From: Candidatus Thiodiazotropha sp. 'RUGA'
GTDB lineage: Bacteria; Pseudomonadota; Gammaproteobacteria; Chromatiales; Chromatiaceae
Reading direction: 5' to 3'
Assembly (NCBI GenBank): GCA_016842065.1
Contig: JAEPDS010000002.1
Coordinates: 62,001-126,000 of the forward strand
Length of the DNA stretch: 64,000 bases
Under the pieces are notes generated by a model. That model ran no database searches and was not told the DNA's origin. It was given only the letters and a program-made list of their open reading frames with translations. Below are positions 20,897-24,479 of this stretch, piece by piece; within the stretch, counting starts at the first letter, position 1, and the number at the start of each line of letters is the position of its first letter. Position numbers and translations under genes: made by a program.

Positions 20897-21481
20897 TCAG
20901 TTCAGATCGCTGATCAGTGAGCTTTTAACGGCTGAATCCAGCCCGTCAATGGTGTAGTTGTACTCTGCATGATCGATCCCGGCGGATAGCTTGGCGCCGT
21001 TTTTCAGGCTCTCGATCATCCCGTCGGTCAATTCGAACCGGATGAAGTGGACCGCTGAAGTTTTATCTTCCGTTGTGCGCTCGAGATCCTCATTGGCAAT
21101 CGGGCGAATCTTTTCATGGCCTTCAACCGCAAACCAGATGGCGTTTTCAATACCAATCAATTTGGCCAGCGCCTGTTTGCGCTCCTCCACATCGTCATAC
21201 TCCATCATGAATGTGGCCTTCCAGTTGGTGCCGTCAGGGATCAGAGGATTATAGACATCCAGTTCATCCTGGATCCCATCGTGCTCAAATATGCGTTCGA
21301 TGCGCAGCATCTCCTGGATCTGATACTGCATCGTCAGCTCATCCTCGAAATAGAGCGCGGCATGAGGTCCAATCGGTAATCGACGGCTTTTTTTGTGGTC
21401 TATGACGCGGGTTCTGAACTCCTGGCGTATACGCGAATACTCTTCGAGGCTGTAGAGGTCTTCATGGGATAGCTGGGTCAT
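20897..21481 (-). CDS. DUF3501 family protein
   Basis: A 194-residue soluble protein of the DUF3501 family: LSHEDLYSLEEYSRIRQEFR, IGPHAALYFEDELTMQYQIQEMLRIER and HFIRFELTDGMIESLKNG are typical stretches. Its biochemical function is unknown. In many proteobacteria it sits with rubrerythrin and an HdrD-like Fe-S protein, exactly the order seen here, so it is probably part of the same peroxide-related electron-transfer unit. A strong ribosome site (AAGGAGCG) fixes the ATG at 21481. It is 137 bases downstream of the Fe-S gene, with the dispersed palindrome at 21599 lying in between. Confidence 0.92.
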   Translation of the reverse strand: MTQLSHEDLYSLEEYSRIRQEFRTRVIDHKKSRRLPIGPHAALYFEDELTMQYQIQEMLRIERIFEHDGIQDELDVYNPLIPDGTNWKATFMMEYDDVEERKQALAKLIGIENAIWFAVEGHEKIRPIANEDLERTTEDKTSAVHFIRFELTDGMIESLKNGAKLSAGIDHAEYNYTIDGLDSAVKSSLISDLN

Positions 21482-21598: not shown

Positions 21599-21622
21599 CT
21601 AGGGCCTGTTAACAGGCCCTAG
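21599..21622. repeat. Compact palindromic copy of the TAGGGCC repeat, supplies a stop codon
   Basis: A perfect 24-bp palindrome (CTAGGGCCTGTT joined to its mirror image). The outer 12 bases match the end of the MITE-like element at 1362, but here two ends are joined directly with no interior. It overlaps the TAG stop codon (21619-21621) of the Fe-S protein gene. It could also act as a short hairpin in the transcript between the Fe-S and DUF3501 genes. Confidence 0.75.
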
Positions 21623-22962
21623 ATACCATAGGCCTGACGCATCAGACTGATCGGGTGTTGTGGTTGTCTGCCATCGTTGAGGCCATTTTCGATGTGGTGC
21701 CCCGCCATTGGGCAGTCACTGCCGTAACAGTCGGCTTCCGCCTGTTTTACCCGGTTGACCACTGGCTTGCCGATCTTCATCGCATGTTTGTGAAATTCGC
21801 TCTTCACCGCATAGGTTCCATCATGGCCGGAACAGCGTTCGATGGCTGTCACCTGGGTATCCGGGATCAGACTTAAAACCTCCTTTGTTTTTGCCCCGAC
21901 ATTCTGCACCCGCTGATGACAGGCGGCATGGTAGGCCACCTTGCCCAGGCCCTGCTTGAAGTCGGTTTTCAACAGCTCCGCTTTGTGTCTGAGCATCAGG
22001 TACTCGAAGATGTCGAAAATTGCATCGGCGACTTTTTTAACCTGGGGGTCATCGGGAAACAGCAGCGGCAGCTCCTGTTTGAACATCAGCGCACAGGAAG
22101 GTACCGGTGCGACGATATCCCAACCCTGATCCACCAGTTTGGCCAGTACCGGGATATTGGCGTCCTTGGCAGCCTCTACCGCGTCCAGATTGCCCAATTC
22201 AAGTTTGGGCATGCCGCAACACTGCTCTTTTTCCGCCAGGGTTACCGGTATGTCGTTGTGTTCGAATACCGCTACCAGGTCCTCACCCACATGGGGTTCG
22301 TTGTAGTTGCCGTAACAGGTTCCGAACAGGGCGACTTTGCCTTTGGTGGTTCCCGCAGGAGTGCCCTGTGCATCGATGGCAACTTTTGCGGCCAGTCGCT
22401 TGCGCAGGGGTTTGCTGTGAAATTCGGGTAGCTTTGCTTCGGGATGAACTCCCAGTGCATGATCCAGTATTTCACGGAAATTTTTCGCTTTGTTGAATCG
22501 GTTGACCACGCCCGAGACGACTGGAATGCCGGCCAGTTTGCCCAGGTTGTCGGTGCTGGTGAGCAGTCGGTCGCGCAGTTTGACGTCGCCTTTTTTGTAC
22601 TTCACCGCTTTCGCCCGCAGCATCAGGTGTGGAAAGTCGATATTCCACTCGTGCGGTGGTACATAGGGGCATTTGGTCATGTAACAGAGGTCACACAGGT
22701 AGCAGTGATCCACCACCTGCCAGTAATCCTCTTTGGCAACACCGTCCACCTCCATGGTCTCCGATTCATCCACCAGATCGAACAGACTTGGAAAGCTTTG
22801 ACAGAGGCTGACGCAGCGTCGACATCCATGGCACAGATCGAAGACCCGTTCCAGCTCCTCCATTAGGCTCTGCTCGTTGTAGTATTCGGGGTTTTTCCAG
22901 TCGATGGAATGCCGTGTCGGGGCTTCCAGATTACCTTCTCTTTGACCGGTAGGTGCTGCCAT
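21619..22962 (-). CDS. HdrD/GlpC-like iron-sulfur protein of the rubrerythrin cluster
   Basis: A 447-residue soluble Fe-S protein. Two cysteine clusters near the N-terminus (CHGCRRCVSLC, about 44-54, and CYLCDLCYMTKCP, about 87-99) should hold [4Fe-4S] centres. Two CCG-type domains follow: the first is canonical (EKEQCCGMPKLELG), the second reads ERCSGHDGTY with Ser in place of the second Cys. In heterodisulfide reductase, CCG domains bind a special Fe-S centre that reduces disulfides. It probably delivers electrons to rubrerythrin. It starts at 22962 after AGGAG, 81 bases beyond rubrerythrin, and is followed by DUF3501. Its TAG stop falls in a repeat copy, so the last residues may have been changed by insertion. 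Confidence 0.9.
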   Translation of the reverse strand: MAAPTGQREGNLEAPTRHSIDWKNPEYYNEQSLMEELERVFDLCHGCRRCVSLCQSFPSLFDLVDESETMEVDGVAKEDYWQVVDHCYLCDLCYMTKCPYVPPHEWNIDFPHLMLRAKAVKYKKGDVKLRDRLLTSTDNLGKLAGIPVVSGVVNRFNKAKNFREILDHALGVHPEAKLPEFHSKPLRKRLAAKVAIDAQGTPAGTTKGKVALFGTCYGNYNEPHVGEDLVAVFEHNDIPVTLAEKEQCCGMPKLELGNLDAVEAAKDANIPVLAKLVDQGWDIVAPVPSCALMFKQELPLLFPDDPQVKKVADAIFDIFEYLMLRHKAELLKTDFKQGLGKVAYHAACHQRVQNVGAKTKEVLSLIPDTQVTAIERCSGHDGTYAVKSEFHKHAMKIGKPVVNRVKQAEADCYGSDCPMAGHHIENGLNDGRQPQHPISLMRQAYGI

Positions 22963-23043: not shown

Positions 23044-23460
23044 TCAGTCCAGCTCGTCCAGAGCTTTCTGGTAACGGTTGGCGTGAGAACGTTCCGCTTT
23101 GGCCAGAGTTTCGAACCAGTCGGCGACTTCATCGAAGCCCTCGTCACGGGCGGTTTTGGCCATGCCTGGATACATGTCAGTGTATTCGTGGGTTTCGCCT
23201 GCGACTGCGGCTTTCAGGTTATCGCCTGTTGGGCCGATCGGCAGACCGGTTGCAGGATCGCCGCACTGCTCCAGATACTCAAGATGGCCATGGGCGTGGC
23301 CGGTTTCACCTTCAGCGGTGGAACGAAACAGGGCTGCCACATCGTTGTAACCCTCTACGTCGGCTTTGGCGGCGAAGTAGAGGTAGCGACGATTGGCTTG
23401 GGATTCTCCGGCAAAAGCGTCTTTCAGGTTTTGCTCTGTATTACTACCTTTGAGTTCCAT
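23044..23460 (-). CDS. rbr: Rubrerythrin (erythrin type, no rubredoxin domain)
   Basis: A 138-residue di-iron ferritin-like protein that likely reduces hydrogen peroxide. The four-helix iron ligands are visible: [43 protein letters not shown] and [18 protein letters not shown] (E...ExxH pattern twice). It ends right after the ferritin-like domain, so the C-terminal rubredoxin FeS4 domain of classic rubrerythrins is missing; electrons must come from another protein, and the adjacent Fe-S gene is the best candidate. The ATG at 23460 has GGAGAA upstream; a longer frame to 23499 covers the 5' leader. Its promoter region has a Fur/Irr-like palindrome. Confidence 0.95.
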
Positions 23461-23502
23461 ATCTGGTTCTCCGAAATGATGGTTATTGTGGAATTGCACG
23501 TT

Positions 23503-23517
23503 GAGCCCTGCGGGCTC
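23503..23517 (-). promoter_or_regulatory. Small hairpin in the rubrerythrin 5' leader
   Basis: GAGCCC (23503-23508) and GGGCTC (23512-23517) form a 6-bp stem with a 3-base loop about 43 bases upstream of the rubrerythrin ATG. It lies in the predicted untranslated leader. It may influence mRNA stability; no specific role is shown. Confidence 0.35.
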
Positions 23518-23528
23518 TTCGCTGTTGC

Positions 23529-23572
23529 TTAGAATAGTTCTAAAAATAATTGGGAGCGAATGGTCTTTTCAA
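23529..23572 (-). promoter_or_regulatory. Rubrerythrin promoter overlapped by a TTAGAA-TAG-TTCTAA operator
   Basis: On the minus strand a -35 TTGAAA (23572-23567) and a -10 TTATTT (23549-23544) are 17 bases apart. Directly after the -10 lies a perfect 15-bp inverted repeat, TTAGAATAGTTCTAA (23529-23543), covering the expected transcription start. The wording resembles the Irr iron-control element (TTTAGAA-N3-TTCTAAA) and the PerR box (TTATAATNATTATAA). The nearby Fur-family gene is the obvious regulator. A nearly identical box lies in front of cytochrome c peroxidase. Confidence 0.7.
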
Positions 23573-23730
23573 TGGCAATGATAGTTTTTGCCTAATATTG
23601 ATGAGTTTCTGCGATGGTTTGTATTGAGGGAATTCCGGGGCATGGCTTCAGCTGGAATATAACCCTATGTAAAATATGTTAATTATATGGGGTTGTAGAA
23701 TTATCAGCCGATTGAATTTATACTCAGCAG

Positions 23731-24165
23731 ATGAATTTGAACGAACATCATCAGTCTCCGCAAAAGCGGAACATCACTCAAATGATGGTCGCGCATGGGG
23801 TCAACCTGACCAAGCAGCGGCGTATCATTGCGGATGTCTTGTTCGAACGTAACCAGCATGTTACGGCGGATCAGCTCTTCGATCTGGTGAAACAGACTGG
23901 CAGCCGGGTATCCAAAGCGACGGTCTACAATACGCTGGGGCTGTTCGCCAGGAAGGGATTGGTGAGGGAGATTTTCATCGACGCCTCGCGTACCTTCTAC
24001 GATTCAAACAACAGCCACCATCACCACTTCTATAATGTGGATACTGGTGATCTGATCGATATCAAAGACCGTTTGGCCGCCCACTTCATCGAACAGGATC
24101 TGCCCGAAGGCACCTCCATGGATGTTGTCGATCTGGTGGTGAGGGTTAAAAATATCAAATCCTGA
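23731..24165 (+). CDS. Fur-family regulator, cysteine-free, Irr/PerR-like
   Basis: A 144-residue Fur-superfamily repressor. The winged-helix part is clear (GVNLTKQRRIIADVLFE, HVTADQLFDLV, SRVSKATVYNTLGLFARKGLV), followed by the metal-sensing region DSNNSHHHHFYNVDTGDLIDI. The protein contains no cysteine at all, so it lacks the structural Zn(Cys)4 site of Fur, Zur and PerR; the four-His run recalls the haem/metal-sensing segment of Irr. It is divergent from the rubrerythrin operon and precedes cytochrome c peroxidase, each with a matching palindrome in its promoter. I infer it controls both in response to peroxide, iron or haem. The ligand cannot be read from the sequence. Confidence 0.92.
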   Translation: MNLNEHHQSPQKRNITQMMVAHGVNLTKQRRIIADVLFERNQHVTADQLFDLVKQTGSRVSKATVYNTLGLFARKGLVREIFIDASRTFYDSNNSHHHHFYNVDTGDLIDIKDRLAAHFIEQDLPEGTSMDVVDLVVRVKNIKS

Positions 24166-24245
24166 TCGCCTTCCCGTCTCTCCACTCTCTCTTCAGCCTC
24201 TTCTGACAGATCATTGAATCCCTCTATTACACAGCGGTGGAAACG

Positions 24246-24284
24246 TTGACATATATCAATGTTTTAAATTTAGACTAATTCTAA
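24246..24284 (+). promoter_or_regulatory. Cytochrome c peroxidase promoter with TTAGAC-TAA-TTCTAA box
   Basis: A perfect -35 TTGACA (24246-24251) is 17 bases from a -10-like TTTAGA (24269-24274). The 15-bp palindrome TTAGACTAATTCTAA (24270-24284) overlaps that -10 and the start. It agrees with the rubrerythrin box at 13 of 15 positions and has the same placement relative to the promoter. Transcription would give a leader of about 200 bases before the peroxidase ATG. The remainder of the 314-base gap shows no gene. Confidence 0.65.
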
Positions 24285-24479
24285 TATTTACCCGCACTTT
24301 GTATGGTTTTTGTCTCTGGCGAATAATGGCCGACCCAAAAAAGCCCATACGAGTAGAAAACAATTAGAGCAAATTTATTCCACCACGGGACTGCAGTTTT
24401 CCACGTTGAACTGCAGGTATTAAGTCAGTAATTCCATGAGGATGGTTCCACTCTTCAAGAACCTTACAGGTAAAAGGAA

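Follow-up and report, generated by a model that had tools for sequence, protein, structure and literature searches.

What governs the rubrerythrin and cytochrome c peroxidase genes that flank a small Fur-family gene in Candidatus Thiodiazotropha sp. 'RUGA', and which signal would that control obey? The locus lies in a stretch of 64,000 nucleotides analysed as a whole and hereafter called the window. In our main reading, to which we give a probability of about 0.85, a regulator of the Irr/PerRA branch would repress the rubrerythrin operon and the peroxidase gene (ccp) through palindromes over the -10/+1 region and would release both upon a signal. The identity of the regulator, its predicted operator and the rubrerythrin and ccp targets appear well supported by the sequence comparisons below, and from the palindrome and its position we infer that the regulator is dimeric and repressing. 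The features concerned are the following.

20897..21481, minus strand: DUF3501 protein (PF12007)
21619..22962, minus strand: Fe-S oxidoreductase (GlpC-like, CCG domain), the next gene after rubrerythrin
23044..23460, minus strand: rubrerythrin, 138 aa (Pfam PF02915, E 4.8e-29), with its ATG at 23460
23529..23543: predicted rubrerythrin operator TTAGAATAGTTCTAA, a perfect 6+6 palindrome
23543..23572, minus strand: promoter-like pair TTGAAA / TATTTT of rubrerythrin, the -10 abutting the operator
23731..24165, plus strand: Fur-family regulator of the Irr branch, 144 aa without Cys, residues 96-99 being HHHH
24246..24259, plus strand: FNR/ANR-type box TTGACATATATCAA, upstream of the ccp operator by 24.5 bp between centres
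24270..24284: predicted ccp operator TTAGACTAATTCTAA
24480..25469, plus strand: di-haem cytochrome c peroxidase (CCP_MauG; PF03150, E 6.3e-61)

The original prediction described a cysteine-free Fur-family gene with four consecutive histidines, lying between two 15-bp inverted repeats and flanked by rubrerythrin and cytochrome c peroxidase, and all of these elements are present as claimed, the repeats at 23529-23543 and 24270-24284. Their agreement at 13 of 15 positions holds with both read on the plus strand; with each oriented along the gene that it precedes, the count is 12 of 15. The start of rubrerythrin was set at the ATG common to its homologues, which makes the gene shorter than the mechanical ORF 23044-23499. 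The DUF3501 gene is probably a further member of the rubrerythrin operon; in those genus loci that extend far enough (L040-L050), it comes after the Fe-S gene in the same orientation, with gaps of about 50 to more than 600 bp.

The promoter layout departs from what had been proposed. The two sites were said to occupy the same place relative to the -10 and the expected start; they lie 68 bp (rubrerythrin, where the site adjoins a weak -10, TATTTT) and 195 bp (ccp) before the ATG. The TTGACA taken for the ccp -35 is half of the FNR-type box TTGACATATATCAA at 24246-24259, which is one mismatch away from TTGATNNNNATCAA, the sequence that we take to be the FNR-type consensus. Situated just upstream of the ccp operator, this putative activator site would add an input of oxygen limitation, so that ccp may have a two-input promoter, responsive to low oxygen and to release of the repressor. 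The 24.5-bp spacing between box and operator recurs in G113 and G132, and a spacing of 41.5 bp is found in G046, G084 and G126; at the other ccp promoters of the set, an FNR-type box at a fixed distance was looked for and none was found. The rubrerythrin promoter scan is weak alone (1 found versus 2.2 expected in shuffles), and TTGAAA is kept in 20 of 20 distinct aligned genus rubrerythrin promoters. The rubrerythrin leader contains a hairpin (GAGCCCGCAGGGCTC; window 23505-23520, minus strand) whose letters vary in the genus, a similar inverted repeat often being kept (by eye). The ccp leader (window 24285-24479), which spans about 195 bp from operator to ATG, is poorly conserved apart from a GAGGATGG-like block.

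How specific are the palindromes to these two promoters? A search of the whole window for TTAGANTANTTCTAA with up to two mismatches returned matches at these two places alone (four strand-matches), against a mean of 0.36 and a largest count of 3 in 100 shuffles. A genome-wide search had been suggested as a check, and the reversed pattern served as the control for motif counts: exact TTAGANNNNTTCTAA occurs in the 4.77-Mb genome (177 contigs) solely at the rubrerythrin and ccp sites, and up to one mismatch yields 24 strand-matches versus 108 for the reversed control. Conservation was followed in the 21 genomes of the genus that have the regulator locus (L010-L030, the window genome included). 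All 21 carry the ccp site with at most two mismatches of 12, 132-208 bp before the ATG. The rubrerythrin site, with at most one mismatch, is present in 17 of 20, 66-70 bp before the ATG, and absent in three members of the genus (L022-L024), one more locus being without the gene. G048, of the same genus, gave no match for any of the three genes (regulator, rubrerythrin, ccp) under the thresholds applied, a joint absence.

A third strong site, TTAGATTTAGTCTAA (20.8 bits), lies elsewhere in the genome at G000:C34:20846-20860 (L132:2347), 194 bp before a response-regulator/EAL gene. The DNA around it was matched in 5 of 22 genus genomes; four of the five keep the TTAGA-N5-TCTAA form, and the fifth is one letter off. 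This site is a possible third target, which would tie the regulator to c-di-GMP turnover.

The family of the regulator can be read from several comparisons. Among NCBIfam models it ranks IrrA (111.8 bits) and Irr (110.6 bits) highest, followed by PerRA (88.7 bits), and it misses the Irr cut-offs (111.8 of 150 for NF045678, 110.6 of 170 for NF045677). NF045678 is passed by 57 of 299 genomes of the phylum, the window genome not among them. The protein's top match in the PDB is 5nl9, a regulator from the Fur family which we take to be leptospiral PerRA. In our tree of 157 rows and 140 columns, weak on detail, the window's branch contributes 107 rows, two of which belong to a different class of the phylum, and Irr-type proteins contribute 32; PerRA and outgroups make up the rest. 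Thirty-one of the Irr rows exceed the NF045678 cut-off, L341 being the exception; labelled merely as belonging to the same phylum, the 32 are presumably alphaproteobacterial, true Irr being described from there. The window's branch, Irr and PerRA form a 140-row clade (support 100/92) apart from Fur, Zur and the PerR of Bacillus and Streptococcus. Leptospiral PerRA sits on a long branch inside the clade, and AU tests of its placement gave p values of 0.535 and 0.315. Seven Cys-bearing PerR-like proteins fall outside the Irr clade; these (L327, L328, L330, L331, L333, L336 and L337) are a separate PerR-like Fur group from other classes of the phylum.

The comparison extends to single residues. 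H43, D91, H99, D110 and N67 occur in 107/107 rows of the window's branch and 32/32 Irr rows, and H97 in 106/107 (one gap) and 32/32. By PerR numbering, H43, D91, H97, H99 and D110 are presumably the aligned metal-ligand positions. The protein has the five regulatory ligands of PerR, with Asp instead of Glu, together with the recognition Asn; the genome's own Fur has Glu at both Asp ligand positions and Arg at the recognition Asn position. The HXH motif of Irr is present in the sequence as H97-x-H99, and the HHHF motif is common with the Irr rows (H98 in 97 and F100 in 98 of the 107). The CxxC structural zinc site of classical PerR is found in 0 of 107 rows, and the window protein has no Cys at all. 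Such absence is ordinary in this branch: 60 of the 107 rows are Cys-free, and no Cys column exceeds 4/107. In the excerpted text of PMC8638967, Irr and leptospiral PerRA are likewise reported without a CxxC motif, and the Asp and Asn are what set PerR/Irr apart from Fur. Residue 62 of the recognition helix is Lys in 98 and Arg in 9 of the 107 rows versus Leu in 32/32 Irr rows, and is a candidate for the shift of the half-site from TTAGAA to TTAGAC.

Does the palindrome follow the regulator outside the genus? Promoters were scored with a 15-position weight matrix built from genus sites alone (nine sites plus their reverse complements), at a 12-bit threshold that was picked after the scores were seen. 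The order sample comprises 147 genomes, those listed all carrying the window's family label; ccp orthologues were taken at 66% identity or more from its other genera, and 29 of 32 listed places were examined, those left out (G129, G086 and G142, a fragment without a start) all being regulator-negative. Orthologue promoters reached at least 12 bits in 10 of 12 cases with the regulator versus 0 of 17 without it (16 genomes; best 8.2; Fisher p 3.3e-6), or 5/7 versus 0/11 when collapsed by genus (p 0.0025). The exceptions with the regulator present are G069, at 6.5 bits (no good site), and G033, at 9.2 (weak). This count takes in ccp genes that do not adjoin the regulator gene, lying hundreds of kb away in G032, G046 and G132 and on another contig in G084 and G126. 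The ccp site tracks the Irr-like gene, and Fur, presumably widely shared, would not explain that pattern. CCP paralogues of the order sample (41-54% identity) reached 12 bits in 1/20 cases where the regulator is present and in 1/20 where it is absent, and 9.5 bits in 4 and 1. In the distant genomes described next, 12 have a CCP_MauG match, 11 of them paralogues (45-49%), and 7 of the 12 promoters score at least 12 bits; at L368, where the sole distant ccp orthologue lies (75% identity), the promoter is without a site.

The rubrerythrin promoters tell a two-part story. From the order sample, 40 short and 20 longer-paralogue promoters were chosen from a longer list to span genera. Short rubrerythrin outside the genus has no site at 9.5 bits or more in 12 promoters accompanied by the regulator (best 6.9); without it, 0/28 reach 12 and 1/28 reaches 9.5 (best 9.7). 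The longer paralogue reaches 12 bits in none of 14 cases with the regulator (G070 belongs to the genus, and one case has no upstream DNA) and in none of 6 without. Nine added loci, eight with enough upstream DNA (the ninth being one with the regulator), gave none at 12 or more: 0/4 at 9.5 or more with the regulator, and 0/4 without (best 9.3 overall and in the latter four). Because the order sample outside the genus had shown no rubrerythrin site, an origin of rubrerythrin control within the genus was considered; it was rejected when all 28 distant rubrerythrin promoters proved to carry the site. The distant set consists of 40 gammaproteobacterial genomes with the regulator (from 40 of the 68 loci L052-L119), 28 of which have rubrerythrin, with the Fe-S gene following it in 28/28 loci. 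Every one of these promoters scores at least 9.5 bits and 26/28 at least 12, with the site 24-75 bp before the ATG; the 28 positives come from outside the window's close kin, and every regulator-negative control belongs to the order sample around the window. There are 21 different site sequences among the 28, with positions 6/10 reading C-G in 18, A-T in 3, C-T in 4 and A-G in 3. TTGAC lies at most 42 bp upstream of the site in 27/28, with a -10-like hexamer about 17 bp after it in many (by eye), and these positions suggest that the distant site covers roughly +1 to +20, as a repressor would. Exact TTAGACNNNGTCTAA occurs at 32 sites in 25/40 distant genomes versus 12 for the reversed pattern, and by coordinates 16 of the 32 directly precede rubrerythrin. 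On these scores the predicted rubrerythrin site is widespread, and those near relatives of the window genome that lie outside the genus do not have it.

In six distant genomes (L420, L421 and L438-L441), exact TTAGACNNNGTCTAA lies 35-65 bp before gpmI (phosphoglycerate mutase, by eye), and in four of the six an ArsR-like gene (by eye) stands on the other side of the site. These gpmI sites may be the operator of a different regulator.

The regulator itself is found in 47/147 genomes of the order sample and at loci from several other gammaproteobacterial families. The protein matches one from a Stewartia floridana clam symbiont at 99% identity and one from Candidatus Thiodiazotropha endoloripes at 94%. 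At the 68 loci L052-L119, no rubrerythrin or ccp match was seen within the examined flank of at most 5 kb. The notion of a compact, self-contained version hence has to be given up: the side-by-side trio of regulator, rubrerythrin and ccp is seen in the genus, and the regulator is widespread. What stands of the Irr idea is the family resemblance and the regulon, through co-occurrence, the tree and the true-Irr genomes; the compact local unit falls away, and repression is deduced from position. The regulator's own promoter reaches 12 bits or more in 13 of 94 out-of-genus loci, versus 0/94 inside the ORF (some loci come from the same genomes). At 43 of these 94 loci, a FAD oxidase gene (ThiO-like, by eye) lies just upstream on the same strand, as at L058:3827-4930, and farther out from it pilin-like genes (by eye) are frequent. 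Glycine oxidases produce H2O2. Among the listed matches in the open-licence literature there was no gammaproteobacterial Irr, which is not proof of absence.

In the mechanism that we propose, the product of 23731-24165, presumably a dimeric Fur-superfamily repressor of the Irr/PerRA branch, would bind TTAGA(A/C)-N3-(T/G)TCTAA at two promoters, that of the rubrerythrin/Fe-S/DUF3501 operon and that of ccp, covering -10/+1 and blocking transcription; a signal at the His/Asp site (H43, D91, H97, H99, D110) would make it let go, and both peroxide-removing systems would come on. As a rival reading, the palindromes could have arisen by chance in AT-rich promoters, for which the shortness of the motif and the low significance of the promoter scan speak. 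We rejected this reading, and regard it as next to impossible, on the window shuffles, on the two exact genomic copies, both here and with no others, on their conserved position across the genus and on the site at 28/28 distant rubrerythrin promoters. The palindromes might instead be bound by another protein, the genome's own Fur/Zur or one of ArsR type, with the Irr-like gene a bystander. The genome does have three Fur-family genes (PF01475), two besides this regulator, and the six TTAGACNNNGTCTAA sites before gpmI, four beside an ArsR-like gene (by eye), lend this some color; however, the ccp site goes with the Irr-like gene from genome to genome, and at the positions where Irr/PerR proteins have Asn and Asp the genome's own Fur carries Arg and Glu, which makes the bystander improbable.

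If the Irr-like protein is the repressor, the question becomes what it senses. Peroxide acting through metal at the conserved site has, by our estimate from the sequences, nearly an even chance; haem or iron status, as in alphaproteobacterial Irr, is a more tentative candidate, and both together or something else would be unlikely. As a functional PerR, the protein would hold DNA with Fe(II)/Mn(II) at its His/Asp site, and metal-catalysed oxidation by H2O2 would release it and induce both peroxide-removing systems, a possibility that we put somewhat below even. The protein's branch keeps the ligands of PerR at all five positions, together with the Asn of the recognition helix, and the targets found are peroxide-removing systems, but the same five residues in 32/32 Irr rows make this pattern non-discriminating, and the protein has no CxxC structural site and falls outside the Bacillus/Streptococcus PerR clade. 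PerRA, the best PDB match, is described in the excerpt of PMC8638967 as acting in peroxide defence, without CxxC and with an Irr-box-like autoregulatory site. The genome also encodes OxyR-like LysR proteins (266 and 239 bits, under the 329 cut-off), so peroxide may be sensed otherwise as well. According to the part of PMC3413700 available, H2O2 raises mbfA about 9-fold and lowers ccpA about 5-fold in Rhodobacter sphaeroides; joint induction by peroxide is thus not a given, and for this reason the weight on peroxide alone was lowered. As a true Irr in function, the protein would repress iron-costly enzymes (di-iron rubrerythrin and di-haem CCP) under iron or haem scarcity, with haem at the HXH motif releasing or degrading it; this we judge possible though doubtful. 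Its branch is sister to the Irr rows in the tree, with the common HHHF motif; the same operator and target classes occur in true-Irr genomes; and an HXH haem site is described for Irr in the excerpt of PMC7762939. Against this, the window protein is without the cysteine haem motif and misses the NCBIfam Irr cut-offs. A weaker argument on the same side is that no haem-synthesis or iron-uptake target was identified, since the genes by the weaker genome sites are mostly unannotated, two of them having been scanned.

Whichever signal applies, a widespread gammaproteobacterial Irr branch very probably controls the rubrerythrin operon and ccp, on the evidence of these genomes, through a kind of regulator hardly known in such bacteria. 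We offer tentatively that this sister lineage of Irr, joined with leptospiral PerRA, keeps an older job as a metal- or haem-sensing repressor of rubrerythrin and ccp, and that the global iron role of alphaproteobacterial Irr is a later expansion of a peroxide-defence switch. A conserved branch whose few targets can be predicted provides a Fur-family gene of sulphur-oxidising symbionts and many environmental bacteria with a name, an operator and partners. Having few targets, the system is suited to settling whether peroxide, haem or iron is sensed in this branch, and it bears on whether a single family extends from Irr at one end to leptospiral PerRA at the other.

Among known systems, the genome's own Fur and Zur share the superfamily domain PF01475, and the own Fur differs by Arg at the recognition position and Glu for both Asp ligands. 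Bacillus subtilis PerR (2fe3) is alike in its five regulatory ligands and recognition Asn, and differs in its CxxC structural zinc site, absent here, and in belonging to a separate clade. Leptospira interrogans PerRA (5nl9), the best PDB match, is alike in its lack of CxxC, its HHHH and its PerR-type Asp and Asn, and differs in its long branch, in Ala instead of Phe after the His run and in its spirochaete host. In the excerpt of PMC8638967, leptospiral PerRA has a peroxide-defence role with CCP among its reported targets, and the site through which it regulates itself is likened to Irr boxes.

Alphaproteobacterial Irr shares the clade, the His/Asp site, the recognition Asn, HHHF, the palindrome TTAGAA-N3-TTCTAA and the target classes, a rubrerythrin-domain gene and cytochrome c peroxidase. 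Differences are that the window protein scores under the curated cut-offs and has no Cys haem motif, that residue 62 is Lys/Arg here and Leu in Irr, that distant gammaproteobacterial rubrerythrin sites mostly read TTAGAC-N3-GTCTAA and that a short rubrerythrin accompanied by an Fe-S gene is the target here in place of MbfA. The Irr-box-like wording ascribed to the palindrome was borne out: among 20 genomes taken from the 57 that pass the Irr cut-off, 16 carry exact TTAGAANNNTTCTAA, at 27 sites in all versus 3 for the reversed control, and one of them is letter-identical to the window's rubrerythrin operator. Of nine proteins scanned beside such sites (16 loci), four are rubrerythrin+VIT1 (MbfA-type), and the rest, one each, are ferritin-like, CCP_MauG, BFD, class-V aminotransferase and cytochrome b561. 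In true-Irr genomes, then, the palindrome precedes genes for MbfA-type proteins, bacterioferritin and cytochrome c peroxidase. Irr can also activate, as stated in the excerpt of PMC7762939. In the available part of PMC3413700, the sole two predicted boxes of R. sphaeroides lie at the rubrerythrin-like mbfA and at ccpA, Irr binds both promoters in vitro, an irr mutant is more H2O2-resistant, and loss of Irr changed ccpA little. The gammaproteobacterial target pair matches this mbfA/ccpA pair, and the pair is therefore a known one that does not by itself tell the signal.
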